64,000 nt of DNA, from positions 62,001 to 126,000 of the forward strand of contig CAUJCX010000035.1 of NCBI GenBank assembly GCA_963169235.1. Reading direction: 5' to 3'. The translations under genes were made by a program, and so were the position numbers. Source of the stretch: Actinomycetota bacterium (GTDB taxonomy: Bacteria; Actinomycetota; Thermoleophilia; Miltoncostaeales; Miltoncostaeaceae). Positions 39,556 to 43,885 of the stretch are shown here, one piece after another. Under the pieces are notes generated by a model. It was not told where the DNA came from, did no database searches, and worked only from the letters and a program-made list of their open reading frames with translations. The first letter of the stretch is position 1. Every line of letters begins with the position of its first letter.

Positions 39556-40554
39556 TCACGCGTCCTCGAAGCCGTCGTCGGTGACGGCCAGCACCACCTT
39601 GCCGATGGTGTCGTTGGCGGCCAGCATGCGGTGCGCGTCGGCGGCGCGGCGCAGCGGCAGCATGTCGTGCACGCGCGGGCGCAGGGTGCCGTCGGCCAGC
39701 AGCGGCAATCCCCAGTCGGAGAAGCGGGCCACCAACTCGGCCTTCTGCGCCACGGGCCGGCCGCGCAGGGTGCTCGCCGACACCGTGATGCGCCGCACCA
39801 TCAGCTGTGCCATGTCCATCTCGGTGCGCGTGCCGCCCACCAGGCCGATGAGGGCGATGCGGCCGTCGTAGGCCGTCGCGGCGACGGTGTCGCGCCAGTA
39901 CGACGCCCCCACCAGGTCGATGACCAGGTCGGCCCCGTGGCCGTCGGTGATCTCGACGACGGCCTTGCTCACGCCGTCGGGGCTGGGGATCAACACGTGG
40001 TCGGCGGCGTCCTCGAGTGCCTCGGCCTTCGCCTGCGTGCGCGTCGTGGCGATGGTGCGGGCACCCAAGGCGCGGGCGACGTCCAGGGCGGCCAAACCGA
40101 CCCCGCTGGCGCCGGCGTGCACCAGCACCCACGACCCCTCGCCGACGCGGGGAGCCTGGTCGATGGCCTGCCAGGCGGTGAGGTACACCTCGGGCACGGA
40201 CGCGGCCACGATCCAGTCCATGCCCGGGGGCACCCGCATCAGCTGCCCGGCGGGCACGGCGACCTTCTCGGCATAGCCGCCGCCGCTCAGGAGCGCCATC
40301 GCGCGGTCGCCCACGCTCCAGCCCGAGACGCCCGGGCCGACCTCGGTCACGACCCCGGCGGCCTCGAGGCCCAGGATGGGGCTCGCGCCCCGCGGCGGCG
40401 GGTACTGGCCCAGGCACTGCATCAGGTCGGCGCGGTTCACCGCCGTGGCCTTCACGCCGAGTACCACCTCGCCGGGGCCGGCCACGGGGTCGGGCGCGGT
40501 GACGAGGGCCAGCACCTCGGGCCCGCCCGGATGGGTGATCTCGATGCACCTCAT
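39556..40554 (-). CDS. NAD(P)H quinone oxidoreductase (zinc-independent MDR, PIG3-like)
   Basis: 332 aa. Medium-chain dehydrogenase/reductase without catalytic zinc: ATAVNRADLMQCLGQYPPP near 36-54, ILGLEAAGVV, and the Rossmann loop VHAGASGVGLAALDVARALG near 145-164. It reduces quinones with NADPH. The RxDxxQxxGxYPPP signature matches the PIG3/p53-inducible and QOR group. The ATG overlaps the stop of the SRPBCC gene upstream (ATGA), so the pair is one operon. Confidence 0.9.
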   Translation of the reverse strand: MRCIEITHPGGPEVLALVTAPDPVAGPGEVVLGVKATAVNRADLMQCLGQYPPPRGASPILGLEAAGVVTEVGPGVSGWSVGDRAMALLSGGGYAEKVAVPAGQLMRVPPGMDWIVAASVPEVYLTAWQAIDQAPRVGEGSWVLVHAGASGVGLAALDVARALGARTIATTRTQAKAEALEDAADHVLIPSPDGVSKAVVEITDGHGADLVIDLVGASYWRDTVAATAYDGRIALIGLVGGTRTEMDMAQLMVRRITVSASTLRGRPVAQKAELVARFSDWGLPLLADGTLRPRVHDMLPLRRAADAHRMLAANDTIGKVVLAVTDDGFEDA

Positions 40555-41024
40555 GCGCCGCCTCCGGCGAAGTGGCGGGCGGTGCGGCGGTGGCGCCCCC
40601 GGAACACCAGCCGCAGGGCGGCCGCGGTGAACGCGCCGATGGCGAGGTCACCCGCGCGTCCGCCCCGCACGGCGTAGGTCACGCGATCGGTCATCAGGGT
40701 CCCGTCCCCGGTGGGCTCGAAGCGGTGTTCGTGGCGCCAGCGGGCGAACGGGCTGCGTACGGCTACGTCCACCATCAGGCGTCCGGGGATGATCTCGTCG
40801 ACGCGGATGCGCCAGCCGCGCCCCAGGGGGACGCGGCCCGCCACGACGCTCATCTCGGCCTCGGCGCCCTCGGTCAGCGGCACGGTGTCCGCCTGCACCC
40901 GCACGCGCGTGCCGGGCGGGGAGACCGCCGACGCGTTGGCCGGATCGAGGTGGAACGCGAACACCCGCTCGGGCGGGGCGTCCACCGAGACCGAGCGGCA
41001 CATGTGGCGGAGGGGCGCGGGCAC
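40551..41024 (-). CDS. SRPBCC (START-like) domain protein
   Basis: 157 aa. The SRPBCC helix-grip fold shows in SVSVDAPPERVFAFHLDPAN, RMRVDEIIPGRLMVDV-type strands and the RHEHRFEPTGDGTLMTDRVTYAV segment. Such proteins bind hydrophobic ligands or act as cyclases and lipid carriers; a polyketide cyclase label would overreach. The C-terminus is arginine-rich. GTG start at 41024, 6 nt after TAGGAT. Confidence 0.78.
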   Translation of the reverse strand: MPAPLRHMCRSVSVDAPPERVFAFHLDPANASAVSPPGTRVRVQADTVPLTEGAEAEMSVVAGRVPLGRGWRIRVDEIIPGRLMVDVAVRSPFARWRHEHRFEPTGDGTLMTDRVTYAVRGGRAGDLAIGAFTAAALRLVFRGRHRRTARHFAGGGA

Positions 41025-41030
41025 CCGGCG

Positions 41031-41036
41031 ATCCTA
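41031..41036 (-). promoter_or_regulatory. Putative -10 box (TAGGAT) of the SRPBCC-quinone reductase operon, leaderless
   Basis: TAGGAT on the minus strand ends 6 nt before GTG 41024. Confidence 0.5.
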
Positions 41037-41097
41037 GTGCGGCGCGCACCCCGTGCGACGGTTGGTGGCCTCGCCGGGGACATCACGGGCGGTCGCG

Positions 41098-41115
41098 ACT
41101 GCAAGGAATTGCAGT
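41098..41115. repeat. Perfect inverted repeat, AT-rich (ACTGCAA-GGAA-TTGCAGT)
   Basis: 7-bp arms around GGAA, about 62 bp upstream of the minus-strand TAGGAT box. Could be an operator for the SRPBCC operon or the first hairpin of the structured region that follows. Confidence 0.6.
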
Positions 41116-41139
41116 ATTCGGACCGTTGGTTAGCCGCGC

Positions 41140-41490
41140 AACCCCCCGCCCGGCGGGGGAAACGCTCGTGCCGTCGCCGTAATGTCCAGATCGCTCGGAC
41201 GATGACGTCGAATCGCCCGAGTTGCACGTGGGGTCACGGCCCGCCGTAGAGGCGGCGGGTCGTGGCGTGCGCCCCGGTGGGAAGGGGCGGCACGATGCCG
41301 TCGATTCTCCACCATTGTCGGCGCCCCCCGGATGAAGCCTGAGTAAGAACCGGCAAAGCAGTGTGAAAAGCCGACCAAATCCGCCGGAACGGCGTCCCCC
41401 GCCAGGCGACGGCGGTGCCGGGGACGCATCGATCCGTCCGTGCGCGGGGTCCGCGCACGTCGCGGGGGCGCTCCGTGCGGAGCCGAGGGG
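41140..41490. other. Hairpin-dense non-coding region (candidate structured RNA)
   Basis: The 617-bp gap between the SRPBCC start and tRNA-Leu has no convincing gene on either strand. It contains at least six strong stems: 41143-41159 (8 bp), 41240-41259 (CCCGCCG/CGGCGGG), 41382-41394 (CGCCG-GAA-CGGCG), 41392-41427 (two-part stem with GCGTCCCC/GGGGACGC), 41439-41459 (9 bp) and 41470-41483 (6 bp). Between them lies an A-rich, comparatively AT-rich segment at 41340-41385. TAATGT at 41180-41185 may be a plus-strand -10 box. I could not match the layout to RNase P RNA, tmRNA, SRP RNA or 6S RNA. From 41490 to 41642 I see nothing recognisable. Confidence 0.4.
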
Positions 41491-41642
41491 CGGCGGTCTC
41501 GTGCGCGCCAGTGCCTGCGCCAGTCAGGTCGATATCTGCGCCCGACGACGCGGTCGACCGACGCGGACGGGCCTCCGGCGTGCGCGGCGACCACGTCCCG
41601 TGAGCTGGCGAAAGCGCCTGCAAAACGCGGGGTTTCAGGGGA

Positions 41643-41725
41643 TAGGGACGGGGGGAGTCGAACCCCCACAGCCTCTCGGCTAGCGGTGTTTGAGACCGCC
41701 GCGTCTACCGTTCCGCCACGTCCCC
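41643..41725 (-). tRNA. tRNA-Leu (anticodon CAA)
   Basis: 83 nt on the minus strand. The acceptor stem GGGGACG pairs with CGTCCCT, discriminator A73. The anticodon stem GCGGT/ACCGC carries loop CTCAAAC, giving anticodon CAA for codon UUG. A long type II variable arm (GCTAGCCGAGAGGC region) and a GGGGG-TTCGACT-CCCCC T-arm follow. CCA is not encoded. UUG is a rare codon in this genome but is used as a start codon at several genes. Confidence 0.95.
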
Positions 41726-41746
41726 AGGCGTCGTGCGCCGCACATG

Positions 41747-42895
41747 CTAGCCGTGCGTGTGCGGCGGCGCGACGGGGCCGGCCCGGTCCCCGTCGACCCA
41801 GAGCGCCTCCACGGGGGCGGCGGTGCCGCCGAAGTGGGCCCGGGCGGCGGCGTCGCCCTCGTCGTCGAGGTCCTCGGGGTGGCGGCCTTCGAGGTGGAAG
41901 CTGTCGACGAACGCCACGGTCGTGAGATCGGGCAGCACGAACCACGAGTACGCCTGGAACGGCTCGGCTGCCGGGTTGCGCATCACCAGCCCCGTGCCGT
42001 TGAGCGGCCGGTACGGGCCACGCAGGTGGTCGGCGACGAAGCCGTAGAGCCCGTTGGGTCCCCACACTCCCGGCGCGAACGTGCGCGCCTGCGTGGAGAA
42101 GAACAGGTACCAGCGCCCGTCGCGGCGCACGACATGGGGCCGCTCGAGCTCGTTGTTGACGTCTGCGGCGGTGATCAGCGGGTCCTCCGCCGTCCAGCCG
42201 CCGGCCCCGTCGGACCGCGCGATGCCGACCGCCCCGTTGAACGCCGACGCGCCCACCGAGCCCGTGAACAGCAGCGTCGGGGTGCCGTCGGTGTCCCGCA
42301 CGCGGAACGGGTCGCGGAACGCCTTGATGAAGCCGGGGGCGCCGTCGGGATCGTCGGCGGGCCGGTACACGACGCCGTCCGCGCTCAGCACCTCGCGATG
42401 CGGGCTCCACGGGCCCCATCGCGCGCCCTGCGGCGCGGCCTCCAGCGGTGCACAGGTCTGGACGATGCGCTGGTCGAACGGCGGGCGGCCCGCGCCGCCG
42501 ACGGCCGTGTAGAGCACGTCGAGCGTGCCGTCGTGCAGCACGCCCCCGGCAGCCCACTCGCGGGAGCCCGGGGACGCGCCGTCGGGGAACAGCACGCCGA
42601 GATCGCTCCACGCCGCGCCTCGGCGCGACAGCAGGCGCAGCCGGGCCAGGTCGTGCCGCGTCCCGGGGTGGCCGACGGCCGGTGCGCCGATGGCGATCCA
42701 AAGCTGGACGCCGTCCAATTGGGCGACGTCGCCGTCGGGCGTGCGCACGGGCCCGAGGTCCCACACGTCGACGTCGGGTGCGATGCGACGCACGTCGTCC
42801 GGGGTGATGACGCGCGCGGCGTCTCCCGCATCGGCACGGGGGATGCCGGCCACGTGGTCGGCGGTCCACGCGACGGTGCGGACGGTGCGCGTCAT
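41747..42895 (-). CDS. Glycoside hydrolase family 68 protein (levansucrase/beta-fructofuranosidase-like)
   Basis: 382 aa. Five-bladed propeller sequence with the GH68 landmarks in order: VWDLGPV near 43-49 (nucleophile Asp), REWAAGGVLHDGTLDVLYT (EWSGSA-like), FRDPF (RDP motif, transition-state Asp), NNELERPHVV (acid/base Glu) and GPYRPLNGTGLV. All three catalytic acids are kept. GH68 enzymes cleave sucrose and transfer fructose to water or fructan. They are normally exported; here there is no signal peptide, so activity would be cytoplasmic. The ATG overlaps the stop of the GH32-like gene (ATGA). I cannot tell hydrolysis from polymerisation. Confidence 0.85.
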   Translation of the reverse strand: MTRTVRTVAWTADHVAGIPRADAGDAARVITPDDVRRIAPDVDVWDLGPVRTPDGDVAQLDGVQLWIAIGAPAVGHPGTRHDLARLRLLSRRGAAWSDLGVLFPDGASPGSREWAAGGVLHDGTLDVLYTAVGGAGRPPFDQRIVQTCAPLEAAPQGARWGPWSPHREVLSADGVVYRPADDPDGAPGFIKAFRDPFRVRDTDGTPTLLFTGSVGASAFNGAVGIARSDGAGGWTAEDPLITAADVNNELERPHVVRRDGRWYLFFSTQARTFAPGVWGPNGLYGFVADHLRGPYRPLNGTGLVMRNPAAEPFQAYSWFVLPDLTTVAFVDSFHLEGRHPEDLDDEGDAAARAHFGGTAAPVEALWVDGDRAGPVAPPHTHG

Positions 42896-43839
42896 TCCTC
42901 GTGCCCCACCACGAGCAGGTCACCGTCGCGGCGCACGCTGCGCGGCTCGCACAGCACCCCGCGGAACGGGCCTCCGTCGACCGCGCCCTCCCAGCCGAGG
43001 AAGTGCTGCCGGCCGCCGAACGGCACGATCTTGCCCGCGTACGGGGCGTTGGTCTCGTCGGCCTCCAGCACGTGGAGCGTGGCGGCCGCGAACGGCCCCA
43101 GCGGGGACGCCGCCGACAGCGCCCACGTGCCGGTGCCGGGGTGCGGGGCCGCATCGGGCAGGCGAGTGCCCGGGTCGGAGCCGAACAGCAGGAACCAGCG
43201 GTCGTCCCAGGCGATGAGCTGCGGCACCTCCATCTGACCGAACCCCATCGGTGCGGTCACCGGCGGCAGCACGTCCCAGGCGACCAGGTCGTCGGACACG
43301 GCGTGGCCCACGACGGCCCGGCCCCGCGCGGCGCCCGTGCGCGCCCGGGCGGTGACGTACGCGTGCCAGCGATCGTCGGGGCCGCGGAACACCCACGGGT
43401 CGCGCCACGCCTGGTCGAACCAGGCGTCACGGTCGAGCAGTTCGTACCAGCGTGCGTCGGCCTCCAGCACGGGCGGCCCGTGGCGCTCCCACGTGACCAG
43501 GTCGCGGGACGTCGCCAGCCCGATGCGCTGCACCAGGCCGTCGTCGGCATGGGACGTGCCCGTGTACAGCATGTGCCACGTGCCGTCGTGGCGCACGATG
43601 CTGCCCGTCCACGTGCTGCGGTCGTCGAACGCGGCCTGCGGTGACGGCGCCAGCGCGTCGGGCAGGAGTTCCCAGCCGTGCAGGTCGTCCGTGACGGCAT
43701 GCCCGATGGTGACGTTCCAGTGCCGCAGGTCCGGGTCGCCCAGCGACGTCGGCGCTTGCAGGAAGAACACGTGCAGGCGGCCGTCGTGCTCGACCGTCCA
43801 GAAGTCCCACAGCCACTTGTCGGGCACGCGTAGCGTCAC
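42892..43839 (-). CDS. GH32-like beta-fructosidase family protein
   Basis: 315 aa from GTG 43839. WLWDFW near the N-terminus stands where GH32 enzymes have the WMNDPNG nucleophile. WTGSIV, a YTGTSHADDG loop, WRDPWVF (RDP motif) and QMEVPQL with the acid/base glutamate (EC-like) follow. It lacks the C-terminal beta-sandwich of invertases and has no signal peptide. Substrate sucrose or a fructoside is likely. A start 36 nt upstream is possible, but TACGCT at 43848-43853 ends 8 nt before GTG 43839. Confidence 0.78.
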   Translation of the reverse strand: MTLRVPDKWLWDFWTVEHDGRLHVFFLQAPTSLGDPDLRHWNVTIGHAVTDDLHGWELLPDALAPSPQAAFDDRSTWTGSIVRHDGTWHMLYTGTSHADDGLVQRIGLATSRDLVTWERHGPPVLEADARWYELLDRDAWFDQAWRDPWVFRGPDDRWHAYVTARARTGAARGRAVVGHAVSDDLVAWDVLPPVTAPMGFGQMEVPQLIAWDDRWFLLFGSDPGTRLPDAAPHPGTGTWALSAASPLGPFAAATLHVLEADETNAPYAGKIVPFGGRQHFLGWEGAVDGGPFRGVLCEPRSVRRDGDLLVVGHEE

Positions 43840-43847
43840 GGGCGCCG

Positions 43848-43853
43848 AGCGTA
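43848..43853 (-). promoter_or_regulatory. Putative -10 box (TACGCT) of the GH32/GH68 operon, leaderless
   Basis: Minus-strand TACGCT ends 8 nt before GTG 43839. Confidence 0.4.
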
Positions 43854-43885
43854 GCGGACGACGCCGCCCGGGCAAGGGCGCGCGA

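Follow-up and report, generated by a model that had tools for sequence, protein, structure and literature searches.

A conserved hairpin pair beside tRNA-Leu(CAA) in an uncultured Thermoleophilia genus as a candidate small RNA gene

We analysed a stretch of 64,000 nucleotides, denoted as the window, from a genome of 2.9 Mb, and we propose with moderate confidence that the gap between an SRPBCC gene and tRNA-Leu(CAA) contains a plus-strand gene of about 80 nt for a structured small RNA, which would have its own promoter and be divergent from the SRPBCC gene. The preliminary description of this DNA had suggested a possible structured RNA across the hairpin-dense region of about 400 bp at 41098-41490. 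This suggestion is supported for about 80 nt of the plus strand (41190/41193-41271) and not for the region as a whole.

The gap and its conserved core

The gap covers 41025-41639, and both of its flanking genes are on the minus strand. The preliminary description had stated that the region has no gene on either strand, and no convincing protein gene was found within 41025-41639. A quinone-oxidoreductase-like gene (QOR) adjoins the SRPBCC gene beyond the gap on the minus strand. The oxidoreductase gene comes directly after tRNA-Leu in several other family genomes, so that the SRPBCC gene together with the gap is a feature of the genus. The sole congener available for comparison was the sister species Thermoleophilia bacterium MAG HKST-UBA59 (G001, JAGQUM010000047.1). 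The main features of the locus are as follows.

40551-41024, minus strand: SRPBCC gene (Pfam Polyketide_cyc2), downstream of the gap on that strand
41098-41115, strand unassigned: AT-rich inverted repeat, not conserved in the sister species
41193..41222, plus strand: hairpin 2, with a fully conserved loop GACGUCGA, from folding and the two-species consensus
41224..41270, plus strand: hairpin 3, with a 12-13 bp stem, a GCACG/CGUGC base and a one-sided internal loop UGGGGU
41277-41490: A-rich stretch plus additional GC hairpins, which do not align with the sister species, function unsupported
41640-41726, minus strand: tRNA-Leu(CAA), upstream of the gap on that strand

When the two gaps were aligned, the tRNA-Leu(CAA)–SRPBCC gap of the sister species was found to retain only the part matching window positions 41098-41276, and identity was near background outside about 41098 to 41276. 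In 41145-41164 and 41185-41264, 16-20 of 20 bases are identical. Hairpins 2 and 3 (about 41190-41272) form the core of this conservation, with 77 of the 82 aligned bases identical (94%), and hairpin 3 by itself retains 45 of its 47 bases. Between the same two genomes, fourfold-site identity is 54-59% and protein identity is 67% for QOR, 49% for SRPBCC and 77% for the RpoD part, while tRNA-Leu (86%) and 6S RNA (85%) fall below the core and SRP RNA (100%) lies above it. Assuming 0.6 as the neutral identity, 77 identities in 82 would arise by chance with a probability of about 3e-12, a value which takes the sites as independent and applies to a block picked after looking. The preliminary description had named a lack of conservation in relatives as a refuting result; the single relative found to carry the core shows strong conservation of it.

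The rest of the region was compared with the same alignment. Its density of hairpins, as previously described, was confirmed: 41098-41490 contains four perfect hairpins with arms of at least 7 bp against a mean of 0.70 per window of the same size, and four or more are reached by 0.3% of such windows; with arms of at least 6, there are five against 2.07 on average. The count of at least six strong GC stems is reached only if imperfect stems are included. The AT-rich inverted repeat is real (ACTGCAA-GGAA-TTGCAGT at 41098-41115), and the A-rich segment is present (about 41340-41385), but neither of these features, both used as evidence in the preliminary description, is conserved in the sister species; they are outside the strongly conserved part, as are the stems to the right of 41276. 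Folding of the whole region was mildly better than that of shuffled sequences (z of -1.8 on the plus and -3.2 on the minus strand) and about 1.4-1.6 standard deviations better than that of other stretches of the window with the same GC content.

Promoter, structure and strand of the predicted RNA

In the preliminary description, a plus-strand TAATGT box was said to precede most stems. The 64 kb contain a single TAATGT on either strand, at 41180, in front of one hairpin, and this single box is probably a promoter element. The features that bear on the start and extent of the predicted RNA are listed below.

41031..41036, minus strand: -10-like box TAGGAT of the SRPBCC gene (TAGGCT in the sister species), 6-7 bases before the start codon in both species
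41142..41159: conserved palindrome CCCCCG(Y)...CGGGGG, located directly 5' of the -35 region, with which it overlaps
41155..41162, plus strand: conserved GGGGGAAA, candidate -35 or activator region, identical in both species, not a -35 consensus
41180..41185, plus strand: -10 box TAATGT (TACTGT in the sister species), conserved at the aligned position, the only plus-strand TANNNT of the gap
41193..41271, plus strand: predicted small RNA of about 79 nt, with its start at 41192-41193 from the -10 box and its 3' end placed at hairpin 3 or shortly beyond it

In M. tuberculosis, 73% of primary start sites have the motif TANNNT as their -10 element (PMC3898074). The motif is rare in the window, with 0.045 (plus strand) and 0.031 (minus strand) per 100 nt, and the gap has one on each strand. 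Within this window, TANNNT is located 6-7 nt before start codons more often than at other distances, as expected of leaderless genes. Considering this distance for the box at 41180, the plus-strand start is placed at 41192-41193, the first base of hairpin 2; a start upstream of the CCCCC palindrome was dropped when the -10 box was recognised. A consensus -35 was not found upstream of the box, and a simple promoter and terminator scan of the region found nothing. The spacer between GGGGGAAA and the -10 box is 17 nt in both species and its sequence has diverged; the 6S promoters of both genomes likewise have conserved boxes and a diverged spacer. In a search for a regulon with the promoter motif, GGGAAA-N15-CGTANTGT occurred once in each of the two genomes, with no further sites. 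The palindrome at 41142-41159 is a possible operator.

The 6S RNA gene itself (G000:C37:28679-28835 in the window's genome) scores above the Rfam cut-off in five of the six family genomes examined, and in the two genus members it has a conserved TANNNT-type -10 (TACCCT) upstream.

For the plus strand of 41190-41273, folding gives -50.2 kcal/mol (z of -4.2), and for its sister homologue -50.9 kcal/mol (z of -4.8); in neither species was any of 200 shuffles as stable. The minus strand of the core is 8-12 kcal/mol less stable (-42.3 and -39.1 kcal/mol, z of -3.6 and -3.3). The consensus structure has 29 pairs, and on the plus strand each of them is formed in the two species alike. Four pairs differ between the species (G.U/G-C, U-A/U.G, G.U/A-U and C-G/U.G), each by a one-sided, compatible change, and none of the changes in this alignment of only two sequences is two-sided. 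When these pairs are read on the minus strand, the changes become A.C mismatches and the pairs are lost. Considering that the chance probability of four changes being one-sided in this way is about 1/16, the strand argument is supportive, not conclusive. The CCCCC arm could also be paired at long range with the GGGGU internal loop; such a pairing can be drawn on either strand, and it was set aside.

These results bear directly on the alternative that the core is a structured element of the minus strand, either in the trailer of the tRNA-Leu transcript, as a hairpin for termination or processing, or as the 5' leader of SRPBCC. The orientation of tRNA-Leu and SRPBCC, both on the minus strand, and the folding of the hairpins on that strand as well are in its favor. 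However, the four stem changes break pairs there, the element lacks a U-tract, and the distance from the tRNA to the core varies between the two genomes (about 370 and 217 nt) while the position of the core is fixed. In the case of the leader, the SRPBCC gene has a conserved, leaderless-type promoter box of its own, TAGG(A/C)T, only a few bases ahead of the start codon, so the conserved core does not appear to be its 5' UTR; for the same 6-7 base distance, a riboswitch-like, cis-regulatory SRPBCC leader was considered and is probably not what the core represents. Taken together, we regard a minus-strand element as improbable, even though it is the best of the alternatives.

Only slightly less probable is that the core acts as DNA, with the palindromes serving as operators in a regulatory region that proteins bind between two divergent promoters. 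Palindromes are indeed present in this intergenic location, and one lies beside the -35 region (41142-41159). The conserved block, on the other hand, extends over 80 nt with stems and loops equally conserved, which exceeds the usual length of an operator, and it lies downstream of the -10 box and not over it; changes that only exchange wobble pairs also favor RNA.

For the predicted plus-strand RNA, conservation ends at the 3' foot of hairpin 3, which makes this hairpin a candidate terminator. A U-tract, which is common but not required in the terminators of bacterial small RNA genes, is not present after it. The need for a U-tract in mycobacterial termination is disputed, at least in work cited by PMC12288462, and by analogy termination of this kind may also operate in Thermoleophilia.

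Distribution of the core and integration at tRNA-Leu

The covariance search proposed along with the preliminary description did not place the core in any family: with Rfam 15 at curated thresholds, only tRNA-Leu was found in the window, and at a permissive threshold nothing in the gap came near a gathering score, with the same result for the sister species. Covariance model R1, applied to 42 family genomes (the family and the order are the same genome set in this search), found only the two genus members and none of the other 40. Over 399 genomes of the class, R1 again found only these two, in a search whose sensitivity was limited by the few candidates scored per genome. Weak R1 matches of 18-26 bits were rejected, as the architecture was not shared. 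A DNA search of the family with the whole region gave scattered short GC-rich matches beyond the two genus members. DNA searches of samples from the class and the phylum returned nothing but short GC-rich hits near 40 bits, and none of these exceeded 20 bits on rescoring with R1. In a pattern scan of genome contigs, the sister species was the sole real match, and six others failed the R1 model. The core is present as a single copy in each of the two genomes and therefore is not a repeat family such as REP elements, which the preliminary description had named as a refuting match.

tRNA-Leu(CAA) is an integration site in the Miltoncostaeaceae family. Second, partial copies of tRNA-Leu are located 3.6-4.9 kb downstream in two family genomes, G002 (locus L105, G002:C1:5900-11300) and G003 (locus L104, G003:C205:6600-11000), and G002 has a tyrosine integrase between its two copies. 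In the window, a direct repeat ACTGGCGCAGGCACTGGCGC is found on the minus strand at 41505-41524, about 116 nt past the 3' end of tRNA-Leu, where 0.02 would be expected in the window at up to two mismatches. The motif is at a similar place in G003 (L104), which suggests a putative integrase arm-site scar; in viral contigs, it was not seen near an integrase or a tRNA. Adjoining tRNA-Leu in the window are a GH68 (levansucrase/invertase) gene at 41747-42895 (minus) and an ORF at 42892-43875 (minus) that is weakly similar to it, neither of which was found in the fetched locus of the sister species.

Based on this use of tRNA-Leu and the arm-site-like repeats common to the window and G003, the core could derive from a mobile element that integrated at tRNA-Leu, either as what remains of it or as one of its non-coding parts. 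We consider this quite unlikely: the two species share the position of the core, its conservation greatly exceeds the neutral level, and the viral contig, plasmid and phage collections queried gave no copy. In addition, the overlap of QOR and SRPBCC leaves no attR, and a second tRNA end is lacking in the window. A short plus-strand protein gene is very improbable, since the conserved ATG at 41202 opens a 15-codon frame inside the predicted RNA but a one-base insertion in the sister shifts it to a different, longer peptide, indels between the two species disrupt any reading frame in the conserved part, and no ribosome-binding site is at the usual distance.

Proposed function and comparison with known RNAs

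For the small RNA gene, we infer transcription, both RNA ends and the mode of action from the sequence as follows. Transcription would start from the -10 box TAATGT at 41180 on the plus strand, at a predicted position of about 41193, and the predicted RNA would consist of a 5' hairpin that presents the fixed GACGUCGA loop, followed by a long 3' hairpin, which probably serves as the terminator as well. Considering that no plus-strand gene lies downstream and that the RNA does not overlap with its neighbours, it would most likely act in trans, with the exposed 8-nt loop pairing with target mRNAs or the RNA binding a protein. About half of the confidence we place in the RNA gene goes to base-pairing in trans as its mode. 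The loop is partly self-complementary in addition to being exposed in the predicted structure, and it could pair loop-to-loop.

A broader reading, which we offer only tentatively, is that the core represents a new family of structured RNAs of about 80 nt in an uncultured Thermoleophilia genus. Such a family would be as constrained as 6S RNA, would have arisen or persisted in this genus alone and would regulate genes via the GACGUCGA loop. The genus-only distribution is odd for a core so conserved; it suggests that an RNA under strong constraint can be limited to a single genus, so that family libraries miss it. A literature search found no small-RNA study of Thermoleophilia, and if the core is transcribed, it would add a new RNA family to this class. 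The approach, which combines one sister genome, a strand test based on wobble-only changes and a -10 box, is applicable to other gaps.

Compared with known systems, the core looks like a new small-RNA family and not a new kind of thing. The 6S RNA (RF00013) and the bacterial small SRP RNA (RF00169) are also small, structured and similarly strongly conserved between the two genomes, but the core has neither architecture, and it is ruled out as this genome's 6S or SRP RNA because both are encoded elsewhere, on other contigs in both genomes. The SRP RNAs (G000:C40:2976-3074 and G001:C63:14759-14857) are identical at 99 of 99 positions between genomes whose compared proteins are 49-77% identical. 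The actinobacterial 6C RNA (RF01066) has two adjacent GC-rich hairpins like the core; however, its model matches the core at 20.2 bits against a gathering score of 47 bits and on the wrong, minus strand, the core lacks the C-runs of the 6C loops, and the sister species gives no 6C match. REP and related palindromic repeats are GC-rich intergenic palindromes as here, from which the core differs in having one copy per genome. The closest resemblance in kind is to independently transcribed, trans-acting bacterial small RNAs, since the core is intergenic and single-copy, is preceded by a predicted -10 box, and would fold into short GC-rich stem-loops of which one exposes a conserved loop; in contrast with known members, the core is without an Rfam match or a U-tract terminator and was found in two genomes only.
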